A stretch of DNA of 64,000 bases from Desulfosporosinus sp. BRH_c37. Lineage in GTDB: Bacteria > Bacillota > Desulfitobacteriia > Desulfitobacteriales > Desulfitobacteriaceae. The DNA lies in NCBI GenBank assembly GCA_001516045.1, contig LOEW01000032.1, positions 1 to 64,000 on the forward strand. Direction: 5' to 3'. A program made the translations under genes and the position numbers. Under the pieces are notes generated by a model, which saw only the letters and a program-made list of their open reading frames with translations, was not told the origin of the DNA and searched no databases. Below, piece by piece: positions 20,194 to 41,898 of this stretch; positions within the stretch are counted from its first letter, which is position 1, and each line of letters opens with the position of its first letter.

Positions 20194-20288
20194 ACTCCCA
20201 CTTCTACAAGTGGGAGTGGTACACCTTATTCTGCTTCGGTGGGGGTAGAGTCCCCCACCGAAGACTCGATGTTCAACTTTAGTTGAAC
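20194..20288. mobile_element. Hairpin cluster resembling an IS200/IS605-type end (no transposase)
   Basis: Three perfect stem-loops in 95 bases: ACTCCCACTT/AAGTGGGAGT (20194-20217), CTTCGGTGGGGG/CCCCCACCGAAG (20234-20263) and GTTCAACT/AGTTGAAC (20271-20288). Subterminal hairpins of this style flank TnpB-type genes in clostridia. No tnpA or tnpB gene lies next to them, so this is at most a solo end or relic. Identification is from style only. Confidence 0.35.
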
Positions 20289-20351
20289 GAGTTCACTCAA
20301 TTGAAGAAATTAGAAATATTGTTCATAATGGGAAAAAGGGAGTGGTTTAGG

Positions 20352-20660
20352 ATGTGCCCCTATGATATGGAAATAGAAAACATAAAAAATCAGCTTATTA
20401 AAAAGTATCATCCTATTGACATCATACTTTTCGGTTCCTGCGCTAAAGGGAGGGTTACTCGAAGTAGTGATGTAGATATTTGTATAATACTTGAAACAAA
20501 AGATAAAAGAAAAATAGTCAGAGATATTTTAATTGAGGTAGAATATAAGGTTGATTTGGATGTTGTAGTGTACACTCCACAAGAATGGCAAAATAATAAG
20601 GATGATCACGCTACATTTGCGGGAATTATTAAGAAGACAGGGGTGAGTTTGATTGGTTGA
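20352..20660 (+). CDS. MNT-type nucleotidyltransferase (antitoxin-like)
   Basis: About 102 residues. The minimal nucleotidyltransferase signature GSCAKGRVTRSSDVDICI fits G-S-x10-D-x-D, with a later Asp in VDLDVVVY. Paired with a HEPN gene whose start overlaps its stop by eight bases. MNT/HEPN pairs act as toxin-antitoxin modules in which the MNT protein modifies and silences the HEPN partner. ATG 20352 is favoured (GGGAG nine bases before); longer in-frame TTG starts run into the hairpin cluster. Confidence 0.82.
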   Translation: MCPYDMEIENIKNQLIKKYHPIDIILFGSCAKGRVTRSSDVDICIILETKDKRKIVRDILIEVEYKVDLDVVVYTPQEWQNNKDDHATFAGIIKKTGVSLIG

Positions 20661-21048
20661 TACTGACAGATATAACGAATGGTTTGCAATGGCTCAAAAG
20701 GATTTAAGGAGTGCAAAGATATTATTTGATCATGATGCTGACAACGAAATTGTATGTTTTCACTGCCAACAAACTTTAGAAAAATATCTTAAGGGTTATC
20801 TTATTGCTGTGACCGGAGAACTGCAGCAGGGACATAATCTTCTAAAACTTTGCAAAAAGGTGATGATCAATGACAATACATTTAATGTGTTTTTGAAAGA
20901 TATGGCTTTTGTTAATGCCTTTTATATTGAGACTCGATATCCAGCGATTGATCCTTTTATTGTTAGCAAAGAAGACACTGAAGAGTGTTTCAGGATAGTT
21001 AATACCCTTTTGGCAAGAATAAATGAACTAGTTGGTATTAGTAAATGA
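20653..21048 (+). CDS. HEPN domain protein, partner of the MNT gene
   Basis: 131 residues, all-helical HEPN fold. FHCQQTLEKYLKGYLIAVTG and GHNLLKLCKK are typical of the PF05168-like group. The RNase motif R-x4-6-H seen in active HEPN toxins is not apparent: the matching region reads ETRYPAIDPF without a suitable His. Start TTG with GGGGTGAG upstream. Most likely a paired module of defence or stress type; an active RNase role is doubtful. Confidence 0.75.
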   Translation: MVDTDRYNEWFAMAQKDLRSAKILFDHDADNEIVCFHCQQTLEKYLKGYLIAVTGELQQGHNLLKLCKKVMINDNTFNVFLKDMAFVNAFYIETRYPAIDPFIVSKEDTEECFRIVNTLLARINELVGISK

Positions 21049-25895: not shown

Positions 25896-28800
25896 TTGAA
25901 TCTTGAGCTGGTTGAAGAGGCAGATACCATTGAGTTAGTGAATAATCTTAAGGCTGATTTAGAAAAGCTTATTAACGAAAAAGAGTTGTTAGAGCAAGAA
26001 ATTCAGCATTTGAGTGTAAGGCTGGAAGAGAAGTCTAATGAGGAAAAAATACTGGAATTAGCGTTTTCTGAAGCAAATCGTTTGGCTACTCTAACACAAG
26101 ATGAGGCGAAACATCGGGCAATTAAGGTTGTATCAGAAGCCGAGGTGAAGGTTGCAGAGTATTTTAGCCAATACAAAAAGATGGAAAACGAAATAGAGCA
26201 ACTGGAAAACGAAATTCAGTGCTATTCTCGATTTAACGAAGAATTAATGAGTATTCAGAATATGGAAAACCTCGCCTTGTACGATTTTAAAAACACTCCG
26301 GTAAGTATTAAGGAGATCAGTCACATTAAAGCTACCGTTTATTCTTTTATGCTGGTTGCATTTGTCAACGCCAGACATTTTGTGACTTTTGGTGGGAAAT
26401 CAGGCCCAGTGCACGCCCACTCGTGGCAGGTGCAGATTGATGCGCATGTTCCCACGGAAAAAGCTGAGTTAGTGGCTTTTGCTAGGATTATTGATCAAGT
26501 CAAAAAGGCAATGGGTTTTTACGAAAACAAGGTTTTAAATGAAGTGTTTCCGTTTGATCAGATACAACCAACTACTGAAAACATATCTCTTTATTTTTTT
26601 AATCGTATAGAAGATTTACTCGACGAGGTCGGACTATTCCTGGGTAAAGTGACAGTTTGGGAAACTCCTACCCGGGGAATTGAAGTTACCAGCCGCTATG
26701 AGGAGTTTGACAGGATTCTTTCCGCTGAAAGAGAGGAAACCGATTCTCTGCCTGAAATTGAGCAAACTTCAATCAATCAAAGGGAAGTTTATAAAGAAAT
26801 TGCGGCTGCAGCCTTCGATGAAACGAAAACCATGGAAGAAGAACAATTAGAAATACCTGTTATTGTGAGGAAAATCCCAATTTCTAGGCATCCTTTTAAG
26901 CTTCTTCCTTTCTTTATAGCCGTCATAACTGTCGGCCTTTTTGCTATAGGAATTAATTATCAAATTCTTTTTTCCGTAGCTGGTCACTTTACTTGGAATA
27001 CTGACGCAATTAATAACCTTTTTAAGGCAGAGTATCTTTATCATACAATCAGTAAAGGCAATATGACACCATTGTTGACAGAATACTGGAACACCGGCCC
27101 GACCATTACTTACCATCTAACCTTACCCTATTATTTGGTAGCTTTAATACGATTTTTCTCGCCAGATATTTTTCTGGCAGGGAAATATTATTTGGCGACA
27201 TGTACTCTTGTTGGCGGTCTTTCCTGGTTCTTGTTGGCCCGTTATGTTGGTTTATGGCCAGCTGTTCTCCTTAGTGTTAATTGGATGCTTTGGTTGGACA
27301 ATGTAAGCCAGATATTTGCTCAGGGCAATATTGCTATGGTTTTAGTGATTAATTTACTACCTGCATTTTTAGGCCTTGTTTTAAGTGTAATGGGCGGAAA
27401 AAAACCATCATTAAGCTCGTTTTTGCCCAAAATAGCTCTTGTTCAAGTTATTGCCTTGAGCCAACCCGTGGTTGCTGTTATCTTGGGTCTTTGTTTGGTC
27501 GTTTACTTTCTCTTAGCTTGGATATTTAAAGCGTGTTCTTTTGTGGATGTTTTTAAAGGGATATTCTTTTATTTTGTTGGGTTAATGACCTCAGCTTGGT
27601 GGCTTCTGCCGATAATTCCGGATTTGTTCTTCAACAAAGCCATGAAAGGCAGCCAAGAATTTCTGGGGAGCATCTTAACGTCGGATATGCACTATACGGC
27701 AGGGCCTGCTTTTTATCTTCACTGGGAAATAGCTTTTGTTGGAGTTGTTTTGTTCGTTTTGCTGACATGGAACGCCAAACCGGCGTGGGCCAAAAGTCTG
27801 GCAGTTTCCGGGGTATTATTTTCACTTCTGACATTTCCTTTTATGCAAAAATTTTATCAAACGATGCCCTTTAGCCAAATGGCTTGGCCGGCTGACTTTT
27901 CCGGAATTGCTGCGGTTACTCTCTTGGCATCGGCTTTTGCTTTTCAACCCAGAAGTGAAGGCCAGGGATTTCTTTACAAAAAGTATCGGCTTGAAGTTCT
28001 TCTCATCGTTATTTTTAGCTTCATGATGAGTAATTCTATCCTTGCTTTTTCGGAGGAAAGGAGTAATGCATCTAAGGTCGCCGAAGGTTTTGTTGAGAAA
28101 AGTTTTCAAGAAGGGCAGGTATGGCGCAAGGCTTTAATTGATTTAAGCCCCGAGGATTCTCCAACGACTTCCTTTTTACTTGACAACGGCCTAAGCAAGA
28201 GGGGTTTAGGTTGGATTTGGCAGGGAGGAGCGACTTCAGGGATGTTAAGCTTGCAAAACAAAGGAATGGAAATGCAGTACTACCCATATCTAATGAGGAC
28301 GAGTCTCTTTCATGGCGTAACAAGTCTATTGATAAAAAAAGACAGCATCAGGCGGCCAGAAGAATTTCGCCAGGATGCTGAACGGGCGGGCTACCGATTT
28401 CTCTCCGAACAAGAGGACATGAGTCTATGGCAGAAGTCAGATCAGCCGTTTTTGATTAAAAAAATGACCCAGGGTTTGTTAATTGGCAAGCAGGCTGGTT
28501 TGATGGCCTTGTGTTTTCCTGGGATGGAAGTAGGTTTTTCTAATTATCTGGATGATTATTCCCTAGATTATTTATCAAAATACCCTGTAGTTGTTTTGAC
28601 CGGTGCCGAGTGGAGTTCCGTATCCCGGGCTGAAAAGCTAGCAGTAGATTATGCTGGAGCGGGTGGTCGCTTGATTGTGGACTTAGCCGGTGTTCCGAAA
28701 AGTGTTCTCTCCAAACAGCCGGAATTTCTTGGGGTTTACGGTGAACCAGTGGTTTTGTCTGATCCTCTGGTTGTTTTTGGGCAGGAGAAAAATATCTACC

Positions 28801-29396
28801 TGTCCCAAACTCTTTCCTCGAATGCCGAAAACAGTTCCTATGTACCCATGGGGCTTGACAAGGTGGAATTGAGCTTTGATTACTACGGGAACACTGCTCC
28901 TATATTTGGCTACAAGGAAGTTGGTGGAGCTCGTATCGGTTTCCTGGGGGCAAATGTGGCCAGGAGGGCAATTTTTTCTGGGGATGATGCCTACTTGAAA
29001 CTGGTTCAAGGAGTTTTGGATATTCCTGTGGATTTTACCCCGGAAACCACTGTTCCACTGACAAATTTTCAGACCACTCCCGGTATTTATGAAATGAAAT
29101 ATCAGTTTGATCAGGATTTTACAGCCATAGTTCCTGTTCCGGCCTTAAAAGGGATTAAGGTTTACATCGATGGTATGCCTGTTTCCAGTTATGTTTTTGA
29201 GGATCTCCTGCAGCTGGACTTGCCGGCAGGCAGTCATACAATAAAAATGACCTATCCGATTTCCTTAATTAAAACTGAAAACATTGTTGTCTCTCTCTGC
29301 GCAATTTTGCTGGCTTTGATAGGATACTTAATCCAAGGGAGAAGAGTGCATTATGCCGGGGGGAGAAGAGAGGAATTGCAGAGTGAGCAGATATAA
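25896..29396 (+). CDS. Coiled coil - QueD-like - polytopic membrane fusion protein (exosortase G cluster)
   Basis: 1166 residues, TTG start after AGGTGA. Residues 1-130 form a DivIVA-like coiled coil. Residues 145-265 have the 6-pyruvoyl-tetrahydropterin synthase/QueD fold, with zinc histidines H161, H173 and H175 (GPVHAHSW), the PTTENISLYFF motif and the VWETPTRGIEV end with Glu256. The catalytic Cys that precedes the HxH in QueD (CGxxHGH) is Ser169 here. From about 333 a many-pass membrane module follows, resembling PF10131 membrane proteins and GT-C glycosyltransferases, then a large extracellular part with a Rossmann-like segment (LTGAEWSSVSRAEKLAV) and a final transmembrane helix. A QueD-related domain next to exosortase G and its glycosyltransferase matches the association described for the TIGR03110/TIGR03111/TIGR03112 families (from memory). 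Likely acts at the membrane in glycan assembly, the QueD-like domain binding rather than converting a ligand. Confidence 0.75.
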   Translation: MNLELVEEADTIELVNNLKADLEKLINEKELLEQEIQHLSVRLEEKSNEEKILELAFSEANRLATLTQDEAKHRAIKVVSEAEVKVAEYFSQYKKMENEIEQLENEIQCYSRFNEELMSIQNMENLALYDFKNTPVSIKEISHIKATVYSFMLVAFVNARHFVTFGGKSGPVHAHSWQVQIDAHVPTEKAELVAFARIIDQVKKAMGFYENKVLNEVFPFDQIQPTTENISLYFFNRIEDLLDEVGLFLGKVTVWETPTRGIEVTSRYEEFDRILSAEREETDSLPEIEQTSINQREVYKEIAAAAFDETKTMEEEQLEIPVIVRKIPISRHPFKLLPFFIAVITVGLFAIGINYQILFSVAGHFTWNTDAINNLFKAEYLYHTISKGNMTPLLTEYWNTGPTITYHLTLPYYLVALIRFFSPDIFLAGKYYLATCTLVGGLSWFLLARYVGLWPAVLLSVNWMLWLDNVSQIFAQGNIAMVLVINLLPAFLGLVLSVMGGKKPSLSSFLPKIALVQVIALSQPVVAVILGLCLVVYFLLAWIFKACSFVDVFKGIFFYFVGLMTSAWWLLPIIPDLFFNKAMKGSQEFLGSILTSDMHYTAGPAFYLHWEIAFVGVVLFVLLTWNAKPAWAKSLAVSGVLFSLLTFPFMQKFYQTMPFSQMAWPADFSGIAAVTLLASAFAFQPRSEGQGFLYKKYRLEVLLIVIFSFMMSNSILAFSEERSNASKVAEGFVEKSFQEGQVWRKALIDLSPEDSPTTSFLLDNGLSKRGLGWIWQGGATSGMLSLQNKGMEMQYYPYLMRTSLFHGVTSLLIKKDSIRRPEEFRQDAERAGYRFLSEQEDMSLWQKSDQPFLIKKMTQGLLIGKQAGLMALCFPGMEVGFSNYLDDYSLDYLSKYPVVVLTGAEWSSVSRAEKLAVDYAGAGGRLIVDLAGVPKSVLSKQPEFLGVYGEPVVLSDPLVVFGQEKNIYLSQTLSSNAENSSYVPMGLDKVELSFDYYGNTAPIFGYKEVGGARIGFLGANVARRAIFSGDDAYLKLVQGVLDIPVDFTPETTVPLTNFQTTPGIYEMKYQFDQDFTAIVPVPALKGIKVYIDGMPVSSYVFEDLLQLDLPAGSHTIKMTYPISLIKTENIVVSLCAILLALIGYLIQGRRVHYAGGRREELQSEQI

Positions 29397-30570
29397 GCTG
29401 CCAGTCATAGCCTTTTTATGCGTGCTCTTTAATCTTTGCGCACCAGCATCTGCTTGGGCTGCTTCTGTCATTCAAGTTGATGGTTCTTTCGCTGATTGGA
29501 ACGATCAAATTTCTTTAAGCGATGGATTCGGAGACGGTCCTGATGGCGGAGATTTCAAGACCTTGGCCTGGGGAACCAACCTCAATGAGCAAGAGCTCTA
29601 TTTCATGATTGAGCGGTTTACCCCGAAGTCTGGCCTTACCCCTATGGTTTACCGTCTTTTTTTCGATATGAATAATAATGGGAGTTATGAAGACAAAATA
29701 GACAAATTTGCAGAGCTTCAATATAATCCTTCAAGCAGTGAAGGGGACAAGGTTAGCCTTAAAATTTTTTCATCATCAGGAAAGCTTTTGTACGAGAAAA
29801 ACGGAGTTTGTGGTGATGGAGGGCTGAAATTTGAATTCGCCTTAACTGTCGATGAATTGCAGATTATTCCTCCCCAACCTATACGCTTCTATTTGTCAGG
29901 AATAGGAGGGGCCGGCGATCGACTGCCCGGAAGAGGAGATGTTATGTGGGTACCTTTTCCAGGCAAGGGAGGAAATAAGATTTGGATCGTAGCGGGTATA
30001 ATTGTTTGGCTCGTCATTACAGCCTTCTTCTTAAAACATCGTATCTGGTTGTTCTATTTTATCTGGGGTGCCGTGGGATTCTCTATTCTCTTAATTATGA
30101 CCTTAAGAGGTTCTCCAGTGGAATTTTTTATGGAACATCTGTCAGGCCTAATTTTACAATCCATTTTGAGATTATTGAACATTATTACCCTTGTTTACAA
30201 TGATTCGCCGGGAACCCTGCTGGTGTTGAGTAGGGTTGACAACACTTGGACCACGATGGGAGTGGACATAGAGACATCAGGTTTATTGGAAATGTGCATT
30301 TTTTTGGGTTTAATCTTTTTTTATCCTGGTTACACAACAAAAATGAGAACCGGATATTCTTTGCTCGGAGTTATTTTGATATATTTTATCAACATTGTCC
30401 GGATGCTTACGGTTATCTTCATTGTCCAACTCGGAGGAAGAGATTATCTTTTCTTTGCCCATTCTGTTTTGGGTCGTCTGGTTTACTTTGTGTTGACGAT
30501 TGCTTTATACTGGGCGTTTTTTACGAAACCAACCTTAAAAATGATCTGGGAGCAAGTGCAAAATGCTTGA
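29383..30570 (+). CDS. xrtG: Exosortase-family protein XrtG-like with N-terminal extracellular domain
   Basis: 395 residues from GTG 29383, which gives a clean signal peptide (RYKLPVIAFLCVLFNL, cleavage near AWA-A); an ATG at 29353 is the alternative. After the signal comes an extracellular CBM9/DOMON-like domain (IQVDGSFADWND). A polytopic C-terminal half follows with the exosortase layout: VDIETSGLLE where EACSGL is usual, then FINIVRM (Arg about 340) and FFAHSVLGR (His about 360). The catalytic Cys is replaced by Thr (about 298). It overlaps the preceding gene and the following glycosyltransferase. Exosortases are membrane transpeptidases; the Cys loss suggests a different or non-hydrolytic role, perhaps on the glycan itself. 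Confidence 0.78.
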   Translation: MSRYKLPVIAFLCVLFNLCAPASAWAASVIQVDGSFADWNDQISLSDGFGDGPDGGDFKTLAWGTNLNEQELYFMIERFTPKSGLTPMVYRLFFDMNNNGSYEDKIDKFAELQYNPSSSEGDKVSLKIFSSSGKLLYEKNGVCGDGGLKFEFALTVDELQIIPPQPIRFYLSGIGGAGDRLPGRGDVMWVPFPGKGGNKIWIVAGIIVWLVITAFFLKHRIWLFYFIWGAVGFSILLIMTLRGSPVEFFMEHLSGLILQSILRLLNIITLVYNDSPGTLLVLSRVDNTWTTMGVDIETSGLLEMCIFLGLIFFYPGYTTKMRTGYSLLGVILIYFINIVRMLTVIFIVQLGGRDYLFFAHSVLGRLVYFVLTIALYWAFFTKPTLKMIWEQVQNA

Positions 30571-31921
30571 GCTTATTTCCGAAAGAGTCATTAATTTCAT
30601 ATTGTTTTGGGGAATATGGCTTCTGGTTCCCTTGTTGGTAGATGCTTCTACAGCTTTTGTCTATTTGCTAAGCCTTTTTGTTACTAATAAGAGCGAGGAT
30701 TTAAGTGATTTTAAACTAGAATTCTATCCCATTGTCACCATGGTGGTGCCGGTTTACAACTCGGCTGGAACCTTGAAAATGTGTCTGGAATCTCTCGTCA
30801 ACCAGTCCTATCCCAACAGCTCTGTTCAGGTTATATGTATTGACAATGGTAGCAAGGATAACAGCTTTGACGTATTCCAAGAGTTTCAGAGTCAAAACCA
30901 TGATATGTCAGTGATGTGGGTCTCGATTGACAGACCGAGCAAGTCAATCGCCTTGAACGTAGGAATGTATTCAGGTCAGGGAACCTATTTAATTAATCTG
31001 GACTCCGATACGTGGTTGGGACGGGATGCCATTCAAAATGTCGTCAAGACCTTTGAAAAAGACAGCACTCTGATGGCTGCTACAGGAAGCATCAGGGTAG
31101 ACAAGGTGCTTGGGAAGCAGAACTCTTTCATTGACCTGATTAACTACTGTGAAGTGGTTGAATATCTGATCGCTTTTGATATCGGAAAACGATATCAGAG
31201 CATGACAAATACGATATTTACCCTTTCAGGGGCTTTCTCTGCATTTCGCAGGGAAACTATTATGCAATCCTTTTTATACCAGGAACGTACGGTTTCCGAG
31301 GATACCGACCTAACCTTTCACATCAGAAATGCTATTAAAGGGAAAAACGGACGTATTGGTTGTGTTTCCAAGGCTTTTGCTTATGTTGAACCTATTGAAA
31401 CACTGGCCCGTTTATACTCGCAGCGTCTGAGGTGGCAGCGGGGTGAGATGGAAGTGGCGTCTGCATACTATACGAATGTGACGCATGTCTTTAAGTCGGT
31501 ATTTGATCTCGTTGGGCGAACTTTGTTAACCGATCATACCTTGGCCTTAGCACAGATGTCCTGGACCTTTTTGCTGCCATTTATGTTCATGATTGGTTAT
31601 TCTTTGCCCATGGTTTCAGTGGCTATGGGTGGAATGTTTGTCAGTTACCTGTTACTTGATATACTATACTTTTATGTTGCTTATCGGGGAGCAGATGATT
31701 TGTTCCGTAAGGAATTGTATAAAATCCGATGGATAATCTTTATCTTGCCATTCTACAGGTACATGCTTTACTGGTTTCGCATGGCGGGGAATATTCAGGT
31801 AATGACTGAGGCGAAAAGCTGGAAGGTGCAAAATCCGATCGAACAGTTGGCAGACGTTTTTGCAGAGTACAAAAAGCGGATATTAAGTTGGTCGCTTTTT
31901 AAGAAAAATGCGCGGAGGTGA
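30563..31921 (+). CDS. Processive family-2 glycosyltransferase, exosortase G-associated
   Basis: 452 residues: N-terminal membrane helix (about 10-40), GT2 catalytic domain, and C-terminal helices. Catalytic residues visible are IDNGSKD (Asp94), the DSD metal motif (147-149), SEDTD (246-249) and QRLRW (287-291), i.e. the D, DxD, D, QxxRW set of cellulose/hyaluronan/PNAG-type synthases. This enzyme most likely makes the polymer of the cluster and threads it through the membrane. Starts eight bases inside xrtG. Matches the TIGR03111-like association with XrtG. Confidence 0.85.
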   Translation: MLELISERVINFILFWGIWLLVPLLVDASTAFVYLLSLFVTNKSEDLSDFKLEFYPIVTMVVPVYNSAGTLKMCLESLVNQSYPNSSVQVICIDNGSKDNSFDVFQEFQSQNHDMSVMWVSIDRPSKSIALNVGMYSGQGTYLINLDSDTWLGRDAIQNVVKTFEKDSTLMAATGSIRVDKVLGKQNSFIDLINYCEVVEYLIAFDIGKRYQSMTNTIFTLSGAFSAFRRETIMQSFLYQERTVSEDTDLTFHIRNAIKGKNGRIGCVSKAFAYVEPIETLARLYSQRLRWQRGEMEVASAYYTNVTHVFKSVFDLVGRTLLTDHTLALAQMSWTFLLPFMFMIGYSLPMVSVAMGGMFVSYLLLDILYFYVAYRGADDLFRKELYKIRWIIFILPFYRYMLYWFRMAGNIQVMTEAKSWKVQNPIEQLADVFAEYKKRILSWSLFKKNARR

Positions 31922-31926
31922 GGATA

Positions 31927-33087
31927 ATGGAGAAATTATCAGAAAAGCATACCTTTCTGATCTCTTTAATACTAGGTTTTATTTTTTTAGCCGTCTTTCC
32001 ATATATTGTTTGGTTATTGAAGCCTACGCAGCCTTTGCAAGTTTGGATTCTGGATAATACGGTGCCCACCAAAGATTACAGGGAACATAAGGGTTTGATG
32101 TGGGTATTAAATCACTTTAAGATGAATAACGAACTGGCTGGAAGGGAATTCCAATACGATACGGATTATTATGGCTTTTTTCCTGTTTCTAAAGACAACT
32201 ATCATATTCGGCAGTTGCCAATGGGGGATGTCTCGCCGGATTTGATATATATCGCCGACACTTACGGTGTATACCAGGAAGATTATTTTGCTGATAACCT
32301 GAAAGGTGACAGATCTTCTTTGATTTACGGAGGGTTAAGCGAGACGGATCTTCTTAAAATTGAAAAGAAACTGCGTAAGTATATGACTCTAATTGCCGAA
32401 TTTAACTCCCTGGCCTCTCCGACAAGTACGGATGTGCGTGGCCGATTAGAGGGTTTGACGGGGATCAGTTGGAGCGGCTGGATAGGACGCTATTTTGTTG
32501 ATTTGACCCAGGGGAAGGAAGTTCCGGAATGGCTGGTGATTAACTATGAAAAGCAATATGGTGAAAAATGGGAGTTTAGGGGTCCTGGTATAGCTTTTGT
32601 ATCAGAAGACGATCAAGTGATGATCCTGCTCCAGGGATTGGATATCGGGAGTGGAGGTATAGCTTTCTCCTTAGAAAAATCTTTTGAACAAGAGTTTTCT
32701 GTACAGGAGCCTATTCCTTATTATTACTGGTTTGAGTTCGTTCAGCCGGAAAAAAATACTGAAACAATCGCCTCTTATCATCTTGATGTAACCGAATCTG
32801 GACTCAGCAAATTGAAACAAATAGGACTGGAGACAACGTTTCCCGCCATTGTGCGCAAAAAGACTGATGACTTCACGTCATATTATTTTGCCAGTGATTT
32901 TGCTGACAATAACAAAGTTCCCCAGTGGTGGCAATACTGGGGTATTGACATTTGGAAAAAATGGACTACATTAGACATTAAAGGCCAAACAGATTTTTTT
33001 TACTGGCACGGTTACGTTCCGATTATGAAGAAAATACTGGCAGATATAAAACTTCAGCAGGCTCAAGTTGGTAAGACGCAGTATTAG
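31927..33087 (+). CDS. Membrane-anchored extracellular protein of unknown function
   Basis: 386 residues. One N-terminal transmembrane helix (about 8-30), rest extracytoplasmic, aromatic-rich (WW, YYYW segments) with repeated glycine turns; no domain recognised. ATG 31927 follows GGAGGTGA five bases after the glycosyltransferase stop, so it is co-translated with the polymerase. The rich aromatic content and position suggest a partner of the synthase on the outer face, for example in glycan export or modification. This is inference. Confidence 0.7.
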   Translation: MEKLSEKHTFLISLILGFIFLAVFPYIVWLLKPTQPLQVWILDNTVPTKDYREHKGLMWVLNHFKMNNELAGREFQYDTDYYGFFPVSKDNYHIRQLPMGDVSPDLIYIADTYGVYQEDYFADNLKGDRSSLIYGGLSETDLLKIEKKLRKYMTLIAEFNSLASPTSTDVRGRLEGLTGISWSGWIGRYFVDLTQGKEVPEWLVINYEKQYGEKWEFRGPGIAFVSEDDQVMILLQGLDIGSGGIAFSLEKSFEQEFSVQEPIPYYYWFEFVQPEKNTETIASYHLDVTESGLSKLKQIGLETTFPAIVRKKTDDFTSYYFASDFADNNKVPQWWQYWGIDIWKKWTTLDIKGQTDFFYWHGYVPIMKKILADIKLQQAQVGKTQY

Positions 33088-33254
33088 CAATAAAACCTCT
33101 GTTGATAGATTATCTTTATATTGGCCTTGGTATATAATAATGTATCTAAAGTTGACTCCGAAATTTTTTTATATTTATCAAAATGGCTAGTGAGAAAGAA
33201 ATCTGTTAAAGGTGTAAATTTAACAGTGACATAATTTTAAAGGAGGTTAAAAAA

Positions 33255-33728
33255 ATGTCTAAATTTTTTAAAAGAGTTTTATTCGGATATAAACCGGCAG
33301 AAGTAACTTCTAAAATGGAAGAAATGCAGACAGAACAGCAGAAAGAAGTTCAAAATCTTAAAGCTCAAATTGAAGAAGCTCGGGTTCAACTAAAAAGACA
33401 AGAGGAAATCATGGCAGAGCATAAAAATAAAATCCAAGAGTTTATTGAGAAAGAACATATAATTGCTGAAGTCTTGTTAAATGCTCAGAAACGATCTCAA
33501 AAAATTGAAGAAGATGCACGGGAAAAGGCGCAAAATATTTTGGATGAATCCGAAGAAAAGCTGAAGAAGAAACAACATGAACTAGAGAATCTTCGCAGCA
33601 AGATAACCGTTTTTAAGGAAGATTTTCAAAGAGTTCTTGAGAAATACCAATCATCACTGGATACTGTTGTTGTTCCGCCTGAGGAGCCATTTATCCCGAC
33701 AGTCATTATCTCTAAAAAGTCAATATGA
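33255..33728 (+). CDS. DivIVA-like coiled-coil protein
   Basis: 157 residues. The N-terminus FGYKPAEVTSKMEEM resembles the DivIVA/GpsB membrane-binding start, and a long coiled coil (about 20-130) holds AEVLLNAQKRSQKIEEDA, typical of DivIVA relatives. No membrane segment. Excellent AAAGGAGGT site. It sits in the glycan cluster, and the first gene of the cluster also begins with a coiled coil of this type, which suggests that the polymerase complex is placed at a pole or septum. Confidence 0.65.
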   Translation: MSKFFKRVLFGYKPAEVTSKMEEMQTEQQKEVQNLKAQIEEARVQLKRQEEIMAEHKNKIQEFIEKEHIIAEVLLNAQKRSQKIEEDAREKAQNILDESEEKLKKKQHELENLRSKITVFKEDFQRVLEKYQSSLDTVVVPPEEPFIPTVIISKKSI

Positions 33729-33857
33729 AATACTGAATCCGATTACCAATAATGGCTAGGGCCTTGATATGGAACATAAGCTGCCAAGCGGTAGTGAAGT
33801 TGAATACAATGATCACTGTTTGGAGCGGTATATCTTTGTATTTTGGGAGATGAAAAG

Positions 33858-36023
33858 GTGAAAAAGATAATTCATATTTTATCTATTCTTTTAGTTATCT
33901 CTTTACTGTTGACAGGGTGCAGAGGGAGCGAAGATATTAGTACAAAAAAGACTAATACTAATACAATAGAACCCACTAGTAATATTCTCTATACAGAAAA
34001 CGGAATATCATATATTTCTAAAGTTGATTCAAAATCATTTTACATATTCAAAGATGGACAATGGCAAAAGGAATTTTTAAAAGGGGTAAATATGGGAGTT
34101 GGCGTTCCGGGCAAATTCCCAGGGGAAATGGGTATTACCAAACAACAATACTTGAGATGGTTCAAATATATTGAAGACATGAACGCTAACACCATTAGAG
34201 TATATACAATTTTAAGTCCTGTATTTTATGATGCTTTTTACGAATATAATCAAACTGCCAAAAACAAGCTTTACTTGATACAAGGATTATGGATTAATGA
34301 AGAGGATCTTATTAACTATCAAAACACATATGATGCCCATATTATAGATACTTTTAAAGAGGATGCGAAAAGTATTATCGGGATACTTCATGGAAACCAA
34401 ACTTTGCCATCTAAAAAAGGACACGCAAGTGGTACGTATACTAAAGATATTTCTTCTTACGTAATAGGTTTGATACTGGGAATTGAAATTGATGCTGATG
34501 TTGTCAATGGAACAAATTCAAAAAATCCCACAAAAACAAGTTTTAATGGAAAATATCTTTATACCCAAAATGCCTCCGCCTATGAAACATTTCAAGCAGA
34601 AGTCGGAGATTTTGCGATAAGTTATGAGACATCAACCTATAAAACGCAAAAACCTATAGGTTTCGCCAATTGGGTTACTACTGATATGATGACCCATAAC
34701 AACGAACCCTTTCCTCAAGAAGATTCGGCATCAGTCAATCCAGAACATATTAAGGCAACAAAAGACTATGTACCCGGCCTATTTGCTTCTTACCATATTT
34801 ATCCTTATTACCCTGATTTCCTGAACTGGCAACCAGAATACATTACATTTAAAAACAAAGACGGTAAAATAGATAACTATAAAGCCTATCTAGCTGATTT
34901 AATAAAACAGCATGATATGCCTGTACTTGTAGCAGAATATGGAGTACCCTCTTCCCGGGGTCTGGCTCATCATAGTATTATGGGCTTTGACCAAGGCATG
35001 CTAACTGAACAAGAACAAGGTGACATGGGAGCTTATATGCTACAGGATATTTATGACGAAGGGTATGCGGGCGCAATTCTCTTTACTTGGCAAGATGAGT
35101 GGTTCAAGCGCTCATGGAACACTGCAGATTATGATATTCCTGATCGAAGGGCCTATTGGTCTAATACTCAAACCAGTGAACAATCATTTGGCGTATTGGC
35201 GTTTGACCCGGGACGAGTAAGCTCTGTTTCCTATGTTGATGGCGATTTATCAGAATGGAATAGCGAAAAACCTTTAGCAAGTGGATCTAACCTGAGTGTT
35301 TGTGTCAAGCACGATGAAAAATTTCTTTATTTAAAGGTTGATGCTAAGAATTTCGACATTGAAAAAGATACTATTTTAATCCCTATCGATTCTATTCCTT
35401 CACAAGGAAATAGCACCTGGCCAAAATATAACCTGACCTTCAAAAGGCCCACCGATTTTGTCGTTGAGATAAAAGGAAAAGACAATTCAAGGATTTTAGT
35501 CGACTCATATTATGATTCATTTTATTATTCATGTGCTAAAAAAACTAGAGTAATACTATCAAACCCGAGTTATGAAAATAAAGAATCTGGAATTTTTAAT
35601 CCTGAATACACAATACTGAGTCAAGAACTGCATTTACCTGCCACTAAACAGATTATTCCTCTTAATAAGTATGAAAGCGGAAAACTTTTATTTGGCAACG
35701 GAAATCCTCAAAGTAAAGACTACAATTCTCTTGCAGATTTTTTTGTTGTGAATAACAATATTGAAATCCGGATCCCATGGGCCTTATTAAATGTAAGAGA
35801 TCCTTCATCAAAAATAATTATAGATGATTTGTACAAATCAGGAATCCAATCCATCAAAACCGACGGTTTTTATATTGGTGGTATCTTATTTCAAGAAAAC
35901 AAAGTTATTGAATCGATTGATATGAATTTATACTCTTGGCAAGAATGGGATATGCCTTCTTATCATGAAAGATTGAAACCATCATACTTTATCATGAAAG
36001 AAGCTTTCGCAAATCTTCATTAG
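33858..36023 (+). CDS. Lipoprotein glycoside hydrolase (clan GH-A-like) with C-terminal CBM9-like domain
   Basis: About 721 residues from GTG 33858 (GGGAGA upstream). Lipobox LLLTGC with Cys21. TIM-barrel hydrolase: FLKGVNMG start, ILGIEID with candidate acid/base Glu (about 210), VAEYG with candidate nucleophile Glu (about 360) and FTWQDEWFK. The C-terminal third begins YVDGDLSEWN, the same type of extracellular fold as in the XrtG-like protein. It probably trims or branches the polymer on the outer face of the membrane. Sugar specificity cannot be read from the sequence. Confidence 0.75.
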   Translation: MKKIIHILSILLVISLLLTGCRGSEDISTKKTNTNTIEPTSNILYTENGISYISKVDSKSFYIFKDGQWQKEFLKGVNMGVGVPGKFPGEMGITKQQYLRWFKYIEDMNANTIRVYTILSPVFYDAFYEYNQTAKNKLYLIQGLWINEEDLINYQNTYDAHIIDTFKEDAKSIIGILHGNQTLPSKKGHASGTYTKDISSYVIGLILGIEIDADVVNGTNSKNPTKTSFNGKYLYTQNASAYETFQAEVGDFAISYETSTYKTQKPIGFANWVTTDMMTHNNEPFPQEDSASVNPEHIKATKDYVPGLFASYHIYPYYPDFLNWQPEYITFKNKDGKIDNYKAYLADLIKQHDMPVLVAEYGVPSSRGLAHHSIMGFDQGMLTEQEQGDMGAYMLQDIYDEGYAGAILFTWQDEWFKRSWNTADYDIPDRRAYWSNTQTSEQSFGVLAFDPGRVSSVSYVDGDLSEWNSEKPLASGSNLSVCVKHDEKFLYLKVDAKNFDIEKDTILIPIDSIPSQGNSTWPKYNLTFKRPTDFVVEIKGKDNSRILVDSYYDSFYYSCAKKTRVILSNPSYENKESGIFNPEYTILSQELHLPATKQIIPLNKYESGKLLFGNGNPQSKDYNSLADFFVVNNNIEIRIPWALLNVRDPSSKIIIDDLYKSGIQSIKTDGFYIGGILFQENKVIESIDMNLYSWQEWDMPSYHERLKPSYFIMKEAFANLH

Positions 36024-36106
36024 ATCTCTAATTTTTATTTCCAATTGTCAAAGTAATGAATAGCAATTCAATAAAAATAGTGATTATAGAGGAAGGAGAA
36101 CAGGAG

Positions 36107-39100
36107 TTGAGAAGATTAATAAAGCTAAGCTTGTTATTAGTTACACTTATGTTATTTACTTTTGGTTTTGCTGTCTCTGCCATGGGCGATATTAATTTAT
36201 ATTCTCCTTTCTCAACAACAACTCAATCATCAATAACGTTAGGCTCTGACGCAAAACCAGGTAAGCTTAATGTTGGAATAAGAGGGTACACTGACCCTTC
36301 CGCAAAAAGGATCACAAAAAATATAATTGTTGAATCCAAAAGCGCAGATTCATCTAACATAAGTCAAATGAAGTTAGAGTGGCCAAATGGGGAAGGTTAC
36401 AGTACAAACGGTGTGTTCGATGAAATTACAGGTGTTGGTTTTTCTTCTCAGACTACGTTAAACATTCCCGCAAGGGTTGTATTTACTTTTGATGATGGTT
36501 GGAGCAGTGTCTACTCAAAGGCGTACCAATACATGCACCAAAACGGAGTAAAAGGTACTGCGTACATCGTCCCGACTTTTTTAGATAAAAAAAACTATAT
36601 GACCTCCGGTCAAGTTCAAGAACTTTATGACAATGGCTGGTGTATTGCTAATCATACGTTGGATCACCACAATATGTCAGCTTACACATATGCCCAAGCA
36701 TATCCAGAAATACAAAACTGGATTACATGGGCGCAGGGAAAAGGGTACACTTCTGGGCTTAAGCACATTGCCTTTCCAAATGGCGGGTTCAATACTGATG
36801 TTCTTTCTGCTTGCACAGATTTAGGGTTAGTTACAGCCAGAACTGTGGGCCATTCCCTTAACTCAAATTTTTCAATGTATGGAGTTCCGCCACAACTATT
36901 ATCACCACTGACTTGCGGCTTGGGTGGCGATTCTCCTGATGCCACTGCGGTAGATACCCAAATAGCAAATGCTGTGTCACAGGGTAAAGTGGCAATATTA
37001 ATGTTTCACAAGATAGTGGATGTAGCTGGTAAAAATGGTTCAAGCATTAAAGATGGTATGAATTTTGTATATTCAGATTTTCAACAAGTTGTTGACTACT
37101 GTAAAAACAATGGCATTTTACTAGAAACAATCGATGAATTTTACAATTCTCTTAATACAGAGATTCATGCAATAACGGATATTCAAAAAACACTTGAATT
37201 TAACACAAACTATCAATGTATAAAACTTTGCGATAAAGTTATTCTTGATGGTACTCTTGCATGGACTAAACCGACTTTATTCCAAACTAATACTTATCGG
37301 GCGTATGTCAAAGGTTGGTGTTCTTCACATCCAGATGTGTCCAACGCAGTAGGTTCTAATCATACAAATTTTAATGATTTGCAGGTATTTGATAGTGTGG
37401 ATGTTATTAAAGGTAACCTAGCTAATCATTATCAGGTTGGGGTGCATACTAACGGAAATTTGTATATTTCGATTGATAAAGTCTATGGCGATGCCAACGG
37501 ATTAACAACTTCGGCAGCAATAAAGGAGTGGTTGAATTCCCACCCCATAACTATGATATACCAAAAAGTTACACCAGTAACTACGCCAGTAACTCCTTTA
37601 ATAACAACTAATGGACAAGCGGATACATCGTTAAGAGGATGGGGCGAAAATACTGTAATTAGTACTAAAACGGCTATGCAGGAAGATACAACATCATCTA
37701 TGCCTGTCTTAGTTGAGACACACAGAGTTGATAACGATACACCAGTTCTTCAACCTGGTGAGTTACAGTTTAGCGCAGCCACGTACGAAGTTTCTGAGGT
37801 AGGCCCAACAGCTACCATAATGGTGAGCAGAATCAATGGCAGTACCGGAGCAGTGGGAGTAACCTACGCCACCAGCAACGACACAGCCACAGCAGGATCA
37901 GATTATACGACAGCAACAGGAACTCTAGCCTTTGCTGACGGTGAGGTAACTAAAACTTTCACGGTACCCATTACGAAGGACTCCGCCGCAGAGAGCAATG
38001 AGACCGTAATCCTCACTTTGAGTTCTCCAACTGGCGGGGCAACACTCGGAACTCCGAGCCAAGCGACCTTAACTATCACGGATCTTTCCTCGGACGAAAT
38101 ATTTTATTCTACCTTTTCAACAACAACTCAATCATCACTTACGTTAGGCTCTGACGCTAGACCAGGCAAGCTTAATGTTGGTATTAGAGGTAATACAGAT
38201 TTATCAGCTAAGAAATCAACTAAAAATGTTGTGATAACTTCTACAAGTGCCGACTCATTAAACTCAAGTCAGATAGCTTTAGACTGGAGTGGAGGTGAGG
38301 GCTATAGTGTTAATGGGGTGTTTGATGAAATAACAGGCACAAGTTATAACTCAGTAGTTAATGTTGGCGCAAAAGCAATTTTAACATTTGATGACGGCTG
38401 GGCTTCGGTTTATACAGAGGCCTATCCAATTATGAAACCATTAGGGTTCGTTGGTACTGTTTACGTAGTATCAGATTATGTTGATAAAGCTGGCTATTTA
38501 ACAACCGCACAATTAACTAACTTATATGCGAATGGTTGGTGCTTGTCGATACACTCTAAAGACCATCGTGATATGGTAGCCTTTAATTATGCTGATGCTT
38601 ATGCAGATATCAAAGGTTGTCAAGACTGGTTAATATCTCATTCGTTCACTCGCGGTGCATATCATATTTCTCCTCCGCATGGTGGTTATAATGATGCTGT
38701 ACTTCAGGCTTGTAAAGATTTAGGCATAAAGACAACTAGAACAATCGTTAATAATTACAATTCAAATTTTGATACTAGTAAAGATATGCAACTTTTAAAT
38801 ACTTGGACTTGTGGGGCAGGTATGCTAGATTACTCACAACTAAAGCCCATAATTGATACGACATATTCGCAAAATTTAGTTTCTATTCTAATGTTTCACG
38901 AAGTAGTAGCTTCTGTTCCTGGAGAAGATGGTACAAAAATCTTAACGTCTGACTTTACAAGTTTGATGAATTACTTAACGTCAAAGGGGATATCAGTTGT
39001 TACGATTAATAGTTTCAGCGATACACTAAATTCATTAGTAACTACTGAAAGAGTATCGCAACAGAGCAATATGTTTAATAATTCATTTAAACAAGTACGA

Positions 39101-39892
39101 AGAGTAGAAAAGTTAACTCTAGATGGGTCTTTGGCATGGATTAATCTTGTTACAATTGGTTCTACTCCGTTCTATAGAGTGGAAATTTCAGGTTGGGTGA
39201 CTGCTCATCCCGATGTGCTTAGTCGAAATTTTGCGAGTTATAATGATTTGCAGGTATTCACATCAGTTGAATCTATTACAAATTCTGGCCCTGGTCAATA
39301 TCAAGTCGCAATTCATACAAACGGAAATTTATATTTATGTGTTGACAAAGCTTATTTAGATGCCAATGGTGGCGGCACACTTGCTAATTTAAAGGCTTAT
39401 TTAAATTCGCATCCGGTTACGATGGTATATCAAAAAGTTACACCAGTGACTACGCCAGTAACTCCTTCAATAACAACTAATGGACAAGCAGACACATCTT
39501 TACGGTGCAGCGGAAATGGGACTGTAATTACCGCAAATCTAGTAAGTGATTCCGCGACACCAGTTATTATCGAAAGCCATCTAATCGGAATGACCGAAAT
39601 AAAAACTACTTCACCGATCGTTGGGCCAAGAAAAGTATGGACTATAAAACTGAACGGCCTGGTAAATGAAGCTAGCATCAAGGATAAGATTTATATAACC
39701 AACTCTCACGGTGTTAAACAAGTACCCACTTGCACAGTTACAGTGAACAATGGACTTTCACAAATTAGTGTTAAACCAGATATAGAATATACGCCCGATG
39801 ATTATATACTGTGGGTAACAGACATAGTGAACGTAAAAGGAAATAAACTCAAAAGCCAAGTTTATCTAAAGTTTACAGTACAGTTGCAATAA
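36107..39892 (+). CDS. Secreted protein with two NodB polysaccharide deacetylase domains
   Basis: 1261 residues from TTG 36107 (GGAAGGAG eight bases upstream), giving a good signal peptide (RRLIKLSLLLVTLMLFTFGF). First NodB domain: FTFDDGWSS (Asp pair about 129-130) and NHTLDHHN (His about 183 and 187). Then a Calx-beta domain (about 552-662, with NDTATAGSDY). Then a second NodB domain with LTFDDGWAS (about 759) and IHSKDHRD. The end is an SbsA-like Ig domain. About 75 bases before each NodB domain and after it are nearly identical, so the gene grew by internal duplication. Deacetylates an amino sugar polymer; expected on the cell surface. Confidence 0.85.
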   Translation: MRRLIKLSLLLVTLMLFTFGFAVSAMGDINLYSPFSTTTQSSITLGSDAKPGKLNVGIRGYTDPSAKRITKNIIVESKSADSSNISQMKLEWPNGEGYSTNGVFDEITGVGFSSQTTLNIPARVVFTFDDGWSSVYSKAYQYMHQNGVKGTAYIVPTFLDKKNYMTSGQVQELYDNGWCIANHTLDHHNMSAYTYAQAYPEIQNWITWAQGKGYTSGLKHIAFPNGGFNTDVLSACTDLGLVTARTVGHSLNSNFSMYGVPPQLLSPLTCGLGGDSPDATAVDTQIANAVSQGKVAILMFHKIVDVAGKNGSSIKDGMNFVYSDFQQVVDYCKNNGILLETIDEFYNSLNTEIHAITDIQKTLEFNTNYQCIKLCDKVILDGTLAWTKPTLFQTNTYRAYVKGWCSSHPDVSNAVGSNHTNFNDLQVFDSVDVIKGNLANHYQVGVHTNGNLYISIDKVYGDANGLTTSAAIKEWLNSHPITMIYQKVTPVTTPVTPLITTNGQADTSLRGWGENTVISTKTAMQEDTTSSMPVLVETHRVDNDTPVLQPGELQFSAATYEVSEVGPTATIMVSRINGSTGAVGVTYATSNDTATAGSDYTTATGTLAFADGEVTKTFTVPITKDSAAESNETVILTLSSPTGGATLGTPSQATLTITDLSSDEIFYSTFSTTTQSSLTLGSDARPGKLNVGIRGNTDLSAKKSTKNVVITSTSADSLNSSQIALDWSGGEGYSVNGVFDEITGTSYNSVVNVGAKAILTFDDGWASVYTEAYPIMKPLGFVGTVYVVSDYVDKAGYLTTAQLTNLYANGWCLSIHSKDHRDMVAFNYADAYADIKGCQDWLISHSFTRGAYHISPPHGGYNDAVLQACKDLGIKTTRTIVNNYNSNFDTSKDMQLLNTWTCGAGMLDYSQLKPIIDTTYSQNLVSILMFHEVVASVPGEDGTKILTSDFTSLMNYLTSKGISVVTINSFSDTLNSLVTTERVSQQSNMFNNSFKQVRRVEKLTLDGSLAWINLVTIGSTPFYRVEISGWVTAHPDVLSRNFASYNDLQVFTSVESITNSGPGQYQVAIHTNGNLYLCVDKAYLDANGGGTLANLKAYLNSHPVTMVYQKVTPVTTPVTPSITTNGQADTSLRCSGNGTVITANLVSDSATPVIIESHLIGMTEIKTTSPIVGPRKVWTIKLNGLVNEASIKDKIYITNSHGVKQVPTCTVTVNNGLSQISVKPDIEYTPDDYILWVTDIVNVKGNKLKSQVYLKFTVQLQ

Positions 39893-39893
39893 G

Positions 39894-39935
39894 AATGGTG
39901 AGGCCGTTACTTGAAAAAGTAGCGGCCTCACCATT
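39894..39935. terminator. Strong bidirectional terminator
   Basis: AATGGTGAGGCCG pairs perfectly with CGGCCTCACCATT, with an inner CTAC/GTAG-like extension (TTACTT/AAGTAG). It lies between the converging deacetylase and TIM-barrel genes. Confidence 0.88.
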
Positions 39936-39952
39936 GGGAGGGAAGGCTGAAT

Positions 39953-40849
39953 TTACTTTGCCATGCTCATCCAGCTGTCAAAGTAATGAATAGCAATTCC
40001 ATTAAACGCTGGATTATCTTTATAGATCTCATAAACGAGATCTAACTGCTGATACATGTAAGCTTGGTTTTCCTCATAGAAAGTTACAAATTCATTTCCA
40101 TCTTCAAGCGCACCTGTCTCAACTGCTATATTACCCTTAACATTATATTTGTTGAATAATCTCATTTCTGCTGCGCAAATTCCAATTATCCCGTCGCTAC
40201 CAGATGCTGTATCTCTGTAAGCCATAATTGTCATCGATTTTACATTTTTACAAAGCCATTTGGCAAGGTTACCGTGGCCGTATTTTGTATTATATTTTAC
40301 TTTGTAAAACCAGAAAGGAATATCTATACCAAATTCCAGGTCTAAATCAATTGCATGATTTCTAAATTTAACGATGAAGTTCTGATAATTTTCTATAATA
40401 CGATTATCATACCAATCATTTTCATTTTCATATGGTTCAACATCTAAATGAATACCTTTAAACTTTTCATTGGTTAATGCAGACTGTTGATATTCTATCA
40501 GCCAGTTAATATAGTCCTGTTGAAGTGGTGATCCTTCATCAGAGACCCAATTTGCTTCGCCATCTAAGGCATAAACACTGATCATATTTATAGTTGCTTT
40601 GCTGATAAAGCTCCTATAATAGTTAATATCTATTGTGTCATTGACTTGCAGAAATAGAAACTTAACATTATTATCAACCAACTGCTGTATAATACTGTCC
40701 GGATTTGTCACTATTTCAGAGGTATCCCATAACCATGTTGAAGTATTTGTGGAATCTTGAAAAGCTGGTGTTGAATTTGCTACCGCCTTCAAAGGTAAGG
40801 TAGTTAGTAACAAAGCAGTGATACATAAAACACTTAATATTCTTTTCAA
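39953..40849 (-). CDS. Secreted TIM-barrel glycoside hydrolase-like protein
   Basis: 298 residues with a classic signal peptide (KRILSVLCITALLLTTLPLK, cleavage near AVA-N). FKGIHLDVEPY in the middle gives a D-x-E pair like the catalytic motif of GH18-type barrels; later strands include SMTIMAYRD and FNGIAIHYFDSW, again as in GH18 relatives. Gene faces the glycan cluster across a shared terminator. Probably a hydrolase of the same surface polymer. The exact family is not certain. AGGAGG-type ribosome site precedes ATG 40849. Confidence 0.65.
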   Translation of the reverse strand: MKRILSVLCITALLLTTLPLKAVANSTPAFQDSTNTSTWLWDTSEIVTNPDSIIQQLVDNNVKFLFLQVNDTIDINYYRSFISKATINMISVYALDGEANWVSDEGSPLQQDYINWLIEYQQSALTNEKFKGIHLDVEPYENENDWYDNRIIENYQNFIVKFRNHAIDLDLEFGIDIPFWFYKVKYNTKYGHGNLAKWLCKNVKSMTIMAYRDTASGSDGIIGICAAEMRLFNKYNVKGNIAVETGALEDGNEFVTFYEENQAYMYQQLDLVYEIYKDNPAFNGIAIHYFDSWMSMAK

Positions 40850-41154
40850 GCTAATTCCTCCTATTCTTTTTTATTAATCCCTGTATCGTCGCAGTATTTA
40901 CAAAAACTTAAAGTAAATGGTTAATATTATGGTAACATCAAATTTTTATAACAATACTATTTTTCTTAAAGAAGAACACAGTCTGACTTTAATGTCGAAC
41001 TGTGTAGGTTGACTGTTGTTCTTATACTAATATTGTATTACAGTTTTTGTATTTTTCCATAGGTCTTTATTCCTGTTTTTTATTATTAATTGGATAAGCA
41101 AAATCTTCCCTTCTTAAGCATAAGTATTAGAACAGTGCGAAAGGGGTGGAGAAG
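40850..41154. other. Spacer between divergent TIM-barrel gene and sigK
   Basis: 305 AT-rich bases with no gene. A palindrome CACAGT-TGAC-GTC-ACTGTG (40977-41004) lies near the middle and could be an operator. No clear sigma-E promoter for sigK can be picked by eye. Confidence 0.4.
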
Positions 41155-41898
41155 ATGATCGCGGAACTATTTTTTGTCAGTTTGGCACTCTCCGTTCTTA
41201 AGGGAGTTTCATTACTGGTCTCGTATATCAACAACAATGCCTTTCCTCAGCCCTTAAATGAGCAGGAAGAAGCGCGTTATTTAAAAATCCTTAGTGAAAG
41301 TAAAACACAACCCTTTACCCTAACCCGTGAAGTTGAGAAAGCACGCAATACACTCGTTGAGCACAATTTGCGCTTGGTTGCTCATCTAGTGAAGAAATTT
41401 GACGGAACAGGGGAAGATGGTGACGACTTGATTTCTATCGGCACAATTGGTTTAATCAAAGGGATCAACACTTTTGATCCAAATAAAGGGACTAAGCTTG
41501 CTACCTATGCAGCTCGTTGTATTGAAAACGAGATCTTGATGCATTTACGGTCCCTGAAAAAATCACGTGGAGAGGTTTCCATTTATGATCCGATCGGGAT
41601 GGACAAAGAGGGCAATGAAATATCTCTTATCGATGTTCTTGGATCGAACGAGGAAGATATCTCTATCAAGGTTGAAAACGAGTCTGAGCAAAAGGCCTTA
41701 CTTGAACTTGTTAAAAATTTAAACCGAAGGGAAAAGCTAGTGCTTCAGTTGCGTTATGGGTTGATGAACAGTCCGAAACGGACACAGCGGGAGATTGCCA
41801 AGGCTCTAGAGATTTCGCGCTCGTATGTTTCTCGTATAGAAAAAAAAGCAATTCAGAAATTGATGGAAGAGATGGGAAGGATTAATTCGAAAAGATAA
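41155..41898 (+). CDS. sigK: RNA polymerase sporulation sigma factor SigK (pro-sigma-K)
   Basis: 247 residues. Starts with a hydrophobic pro-sequence (MIAELFFVSLALSVLKGVSLL) expected to be removed by SpoIVFB, then sigma-70 region 2 (LVEHNLRLVAHLVKKF, GDDLISIGTIGLIKGINTF) and region 4 (RREKLVLQLRYGL ... REIAKALEISRSYVSRIEKKA). The gene is continuous, with no inserted skin element. It controls late mother-cell genes such as coat and cortex. Proof that the organism sporulates is thus strong but genomic only. Confidence 0.93.
   Translation: MIAELFFVSLALSVLKGVSLLVSYINNNAFPQPLNEQEEARYLKILSESKTQPFTLTREVEKARNTLVEHNLRLVAHLVKKFDGTGEDGDDLISIGTIGLIKGINTFDPNKGTKLATYAARCIENEILMHLRSLKKSRGEVSIYDPIGMDKEGNEISLIDVLGSNEEDISIKVENESEQKALLELVKNLNRREKLVLQLRYGLMNSPKRTQREIAKALEISRSYVSRIEKKAIQKLMEEMGRINSKR

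Follow-up and report, generated by a model that had tools for sequence, protein, structure and literature searches.

What does an exosortase-like protein do in a surface glycan locus in which no substrate with a sorting tail is seen? The question is raised by the window (the whole stretch of 64,000 nucleotides that we analysed), which belongs to a draft assembly of Desulfosporosinus sp. BRH_c37 with 313 contigs and 6.21% contamination. A sequence-only reading had described eight genes here as one block and had argued that the exosortase-like protein, as no sorted protein was visible, acts on or couples to a glycan. All eight ORFs are indeed found where that reading had placed them, and the core trio, which it had named as three associated families, scores above the curated cut-offs throughout: TIGR03112 in gene 1 (79.5 bits, cut-off 69.35), TIGR03110, which is XrtG, in gene 2 (104 bits, cut-off 102.75) and TIGR03111 in gene 3 (380.6 bits, cut-off 363.95), with gene 2 adjoining the other two. 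The features of the locus are as follows.

25896..29396, + strand: gene 1, coiled coil, PTPS-related domain and PF10131 membrane protein (HMM matches; relatives with the same order)
29353..30570, + strand: gene 2, Firmicu-CTERM-like ectodomain fused to an XrtG exosortase domain (HMM, alignment, model, hhalign)
29461..29973, + strand: ectodomain of gene 2 with predicted CBM9 fold, residues 37-207 (VIA-align; hhalign to Firmicu-CTERM)
29947..29961, + strand: W-V-P-F-P, residues 199-203 of gene 2, sorting-motif remnant (W-x-P-F-P is kept in all fusions)
29986..30546, + strand: exosortase (XrtG) domain of gene 2, residues 212-398 of 405 (TIGR03110 match)
30274..30276, + strand: codon 308, Thr in place of the catalytic Cys (alignment)
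30400..30402, + strand: codon 350, Arg of the N-x-x-R motif, kept (alignment)
30460..30462, + strand: codon 370, conserved His, kept (alignment)
30563..31921, + strand: gene 3, processive-type GT2 (TIGR03111) with Q-R-L-R-W, a QxxRW motif (HMM score; alignment)
31918..33087, + strand: gene 4, membrane-anchored partner of GT2 synthases (relatives fused to a GT2 in L102 or directly after one in L106)
33255..33728, + strand: gene 5, DivIVA-like coiled coil (PF05103; recurs upstream of most fused loci)
33843..36023, + strand: gene 6, lipoprotein with a glycosidase-type TIM barrel (relatives beside other loci of the set; GH157-like fold)
36056..39892, + strand: gene 7, two NodB deacetylase domains (Polysacc_deac_1) and a Calx-beta domain, a local addition (HMM matches; comparison of loci)

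Genes 1, 3, 5, 6 and 7 had been described as a QueD-related membrane protein, a processive GT2 synthase, a DivIVA-like coiled coil, a lipoprotein glycosidase and a double NodB deacetylase, and these descriptions broadly hold. Gene 1 encodes a weakly DivIVA-like coiled coil by HMM (about residues 10-116), the PTPS-related domain matched by TIGR03112 (residues 155-261) and PF10131 (residues 405-1021). The TIGR03111 match and the QxxRW motif agree for gene 3, as do the PF05103 match for gene 5 and the two Polysacc_deac_1 domains, joined by the Calx-beta domain, for gene 7. Gene 6 starts like a lipoprotein gene and encodes a predicted TIM barrel of clan A, whose fold may be GH157-like; the best Foldseek match of its model is GH157, at a TM-score of only 0.30-0.42 and with many clan-A families next, while Pfam gave no match and comparison to PDB sequences one weak match only. 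The secreted TIM-barrel hydrolase proposed for gene 8, which lies on the strand opposite to the other genes of the block, was not confirmed: we found no match to a known family and no relative in the other loci of the set. Gene 4 gave weak antibody matches only among PDB sequences. We found no Rfam RNA in window positions 20000-46000, and no clear excess over chance of promoter- or terminator-like sites.

The PTPS domain of gene 1 (window 26358-26687) and its relatives keep the zinc-ligand-like His residues in the alignment without the Cys that is expected of QueD-type enzymes, and this domain may thus be non-catalytic, as the exosortase domain of gene 2 probably is. By eye, we also noted a nucleotidyltransferase-like and HEPN-like pair at 20283-21048 and, adjoining the locus at 41146-41898, an uninterrupted gene for a sigma-K-like sporulation sigma factor.

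To compare loci, we scanned 84,980 species genomes with a GT2 alignment, which yielded 80 loci. The trio and the ectodomain encoded by gene 2 are conserved across them, but the whole set of eight genes is not a conserved unit. A coiled coil of the gene 5 type and the gene 6 glycosidase recur beside many loci; among the loci compared, the window alone has the double NodB protein and gene 8, and L028 has a single NodB-type protein. Members of the gene 4 family are joined to other GT2 synthases or follow them immediately; at L102:4-2613, for example, a relative is fused to the end of such a synthase. Thus, the block of eight is better described as a conserved core with local additions. Downstream of the core, several loci encode another two short GT2 proteins together with one more PF10131-like membrane protein (L022:11740-16883).

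Gene 2 had been called exosortase-like, which holds for its XrtG half, but it is not a plain exosortase: a CBM9-like ectodomain is fused to it, and the catalytic Cys is absent. (An alternative GTG start at 29383 would give less overlap with gene 1.) In L002, a locus from the same genus (G027), the order is a PF10131 protein, a 215-aa protein, a 198-aa XrtG with E-C-S-G and a GT2, and the 215-aa protein is Firmicu-CTERM (TIGR04145, E 1.8e-31), which stands as a separate gene beside XrtG in most relatives. TIGR04145 reaches 13 bits on the N-terminal half of gene 2, against a cut-off of 50; it matches the same ectodomain in the unfused relative L010 at E 8e-4, and hhalign of eight fused ectodomains against ten TIGR04145-type sequences gave a probability of 97.1 and E 5.9e-11. 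By these profile comparisons, the first half of the gene 2 product, a predicted secreted domain of sugar-binding fold, is homologous to Firmicu-CTERM.

The fold itself comes from an AlphaFold2 model of gene 2 (mean pLDDT 88.2, pTM 0.73). Comparison of model residues 37-207 with CBM9 structures by VIA-align gave Z 10.7 to 1i82 and 10.3 to 7nwo over 147-153 aligned residues at only 14-16% sequence identity, and 2ivf_C, a different protein with the same kind of fold that is not a CBM, tied at Z 10.4. Foldseek alone gave weak matches only and it was VIA-align that resolved the ectodomain; comparison to PDB sequences gave no match for gene 2. Because the ectodomain took up the VIA-align matches, the exosortase half was barely probed by them. 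The ectodomain is thus predicted, from the model, to be a CBM9 beta-sandwich.

Separate substrates with a readable C-terminus carry, behind the ectodomain, a membrane helix and then a basic tail. The real fusions all lack this helix and tail of the substrate: their ectodomain leads straight into the first XrtG helix. One candidate fusion with an intact Cys, at L066, was rejected; its ectodomain lies in another frame and has its own tail, and this locus is therefore counted as separate. A TIGR04145 search of the genome that holds the window found only the fused gene and one weak match of 9.7 bits, with no separate tailed substrate, and gene 2 is the sole match above cut-off to the exosortase/archaeosortase family in the whole genome. 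The argument that there is no sorted protein, and that the exosortase hence acts on a glycan, is therefore overturned: a cognate family, Firmicu-CTERM, exists and is present in this same genome in an unexpected form, fused to the exosortase. The earlier reading was right that the window holds no sorting tail, but a homologue of the substrate is there as the ectodomain of gene 2; similarly, coupling to a glycan remains plausible, given a CBM9 fold beside a GT2 synthase; action of the exosortase itself on the glycan is unlikely.

The fusions differ from separate XrtGs at the catalytic position. Cys is present there in 38/38 separate Cys-type XrtGs and is lost in 15/15 readable fusions, which have T (in the window), N, S, R or H but never Cys; separate XrtGs have either Cys or Ser. 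Among 13 columns that are each at least 95% conserved in the 38 separate Cys-type proteins, that of the Cys is the single one that none of the 15 readable fusions retains; each of the other 12 is intact in at least 93% of them. Within the fused clade, the catalytic site must have changed six times or more, so the nucleophile site drifts. Nonetheless, the exosortase half of the fusions is under purifying selection, with dN/dS of 0.09-0.20, like the ectodomain half. A later scan, which covered 63 genomes from a different class, added four fusions absent from the earlier set (L115, L116, L118 and L119), all with Asn at the site, and the separate XrtGs in the same scan all have Cys. As the nucleophile is missing in the window, the gene 2 protein probably sorts nothing, and its well-kept pocket may leave the fusion some residual binding or chemistry.

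We examined the history of the fusion in a tree built from GT2 sequences, with 83 rows. All fused rows fall, with L021 (a row of unreadable state), into a single clade supported at 100/100. This clade is nested in a second 100/100 clade that otherwise consists of separate Cys rows from Syntrophomonadaceae and Peptococcaceae; the fusion therefore arose, most simply, once from the separate Cys state. Fusion and Cys loss thus share one origin, and the link between them is a single event in the tree. A forced grouping of the 16 fused rows alone was rejected, as it shuts out L021, which sits inside the clade. These 16 rows include isolate genomes (L022 and L064), and many of the loci are from MAGs. 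In one MAG, L036:5389-10008 holds a single frame of 1539 aa that runs from a coiled coil through PTPS, PF10131 and the ectodomain to XrtG and has His instead of the Cys, which could be a further fusion or a sequencing error. Two fused loci, L027 and the frameshifted L030, lie on one contig of a MAG labelled Desulfovibrio and group with Bacillota in the tree, from either transfer or a wrong label.

A second departure from Cys is found outside the fused clade. In 28 rows from Chloroflexota, XrtG is separate and has Ser in place of the catalytic Cys; the Ser is invariant, and the Arg and His are kept.

Ser-type XrtG loci, Chloroflexota: L040-L048, L050-L058, L061-L063, L065, L067, L073, L074, L080, L081, L090

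The key residue of the motif that precedes the membrane helix of the substrate changes with the nucleophile: among readable loci, it is Pro in 25/25 Cys loci and S, N, D or T in 26/26 Ser loci, such that S-P-x-P becomes S-P-A-[SND], or the equivalent in other motifs. The tree needs four changes each of nucleophile and motif residue, and all four independent pairs agree; a sign test on them gives p 0.125, and four pairs allow no lower value. In a Pagel-type likelihood comparison, the ratio is 30.9 (4 df, p 3e-6), a value to be read cautiously because the position was noticed before testing and loci with a different motif (the L002 clade) are left out of the covariation set. This covariation supports the tail as XrtG substrate, and thus a protein substrate for the family. 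The simplest reading of the sequences is that the tail is the substrate of XrtG, with the covarying residue beside the nucleophile, and the Chloroflexota proteins are possible serine-type exosortases.

The window has the same four components, in the same kind of cluster, as the system of XrtG, Firmicu-CTERM (TIGR04145), TIGR03111 and TIGR03112, in which Firmicu-CTERM is the presumed XrtG substrate and which has been reported in Lactiplantibacillus plantarum (PMC12854382). It differs in that a single protein unites substrate and enzyme and has neither the sorting tail nor the catalytic Cys. The window XrtG is distantly homologous to the exosortase (EpsH) of PEP-CTERM systems and to archaeosortase ArtA (TIGR04178, 53.6 bits) and shares the conserved Arg and His; in ArtA, Cys173, Arg214 and Arg253 are critical (PMC9263693), and the PEP-CTERM/exosortase systems of Gram-negative bacteria are linked to polysaccharide genes (PMC1569441), as is the window locus. 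However, the EpsH and ArtA systems have active Cys enzymes and separate tailed substrates, and the window fusion is without both. With PgaC/IcaA and other processive GT2 systems, the window shares a QxxRW GT2 and nearby NodB-type deacetylases, but its GT2 reaches 134 bits against the PgaC cut-off of 422 and is therefore not PgaC; we take the PgaC-like and GH157-like resemblances as leads only to the nature of the glycan. Gene 2 is thus, by its sequence, homologous to both XrtG and Firmicu-CTERM and lacks a defining feature of each, the catalytic Cys and the C-terminal tail; we would class it as a pseudo-exosortase/substrate fusion within the XrtG system. Among open-licence papers, neither such a fusion nor a serine exosortase turned up.

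The locus, with its processive-type GT2 and a PF10131 membrane protein carrying a PTPS domain, shows these two proteins as a membrane glycan machine and the CBM9-fold surface protein as its accessory. The most likely role of the fusion, and one that we consider probable, is that of a non-catalytic membrane scaffold that holds a domain of sugar-binding fold beside the GT2 polysaccharide synthase. At ancestral loci, XrtG would cut the tail and leave the ectodomain attached to the membrane. In the clade that includes the window, substrate and enzyme became one polypeptide, with the ectodomain joined to the first XrtG helix, the sorting tail and nucleophilic Cys lost and the other conserved residues kept under selection. 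The fused protein would no longer cleave or transfer anything; it would keep the predicted sugar-binding domain permanently tethered in the membrane next to the GT2/PF10131 complex, and there this domain might guide or retain the growing surface polysaccharide. As the end state would be similar to the ancestral one, fusion would make the chemistry of XrtG dispensable. Exosortase-like enzymes appear to leave their products membrane-anchored (PMC11980579), which fits replacement of processing by permanent tethering.

The retention of W-x-P-F-P in all fusions makes possible a different role, in which the protein is a frozen, non-cleaving complex of enzyme and substrate: the motif would sit uncut in the pocket, and the dead domain would sense or gate glycan export. 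There is precedent in the inactive rhomboids, which regulate their pathways, and the conserved pocket residues and the purifying selection on the exosortase half are also as expected. However, the model is weak at residues 201-210 (pLDDT 67), so docking is not seen, and no regulatory partner is known; we consider this role unlikely, although worth keeping in mind. We give still less credence to a fused exosortase that remains active on a glycan or lipid through a different nucleophile, for instance Ser309, which is invariant and adjoins the catalytic position; this reading comes near to the original proposal. Ser309, Arg350 and His370 are kept in the fusions and glycan genes surround gene 2, but Ser309 is just as invariant in proteins that have the Cys, the catalytic site itself drifts (N, S, T, R or H), and the fusions have lost the only substrate tail known. 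Finally, although many loci are from MAGs, the apparent fusion at L066 is a reading-frame artefact and L030 is frameshifted, an assembly error or decaying gene is very improbable, being already contradicted by the recurrence of the fusion in 16 tree rows, isolates included, and by the low dN/dS.

Returning to the scaffold, we would tentatively put forward, as a possibility, that evolution has provided two natural experiments on this family. The exosortase frozen to its substrate would show that the enduring function of XrtG lies in keeping the ectodomain at the polysaccharide synthase, and the Ser-type exosortases with their motif switch would identify both the substrate and the residue that neighbours the active site. 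Until now, sequence evidence for exosortase substrates has been mainly co-occurrence, and the covariation of nucleophile and motif is independent evidence for the substrate, which suggests in addition a serine-type exosortase. A clade that has fused the substrate and dropped the nucleophile tells which parts of the system matter, and thus offers a natural way to ask what exosortases are for. Across Bacillota and Chloroflexota, a part in assembling surface polysaccharide is suggested by the sugar-binding fold predicted for the ectodomain and by the GT2 that is its constant neighbour.
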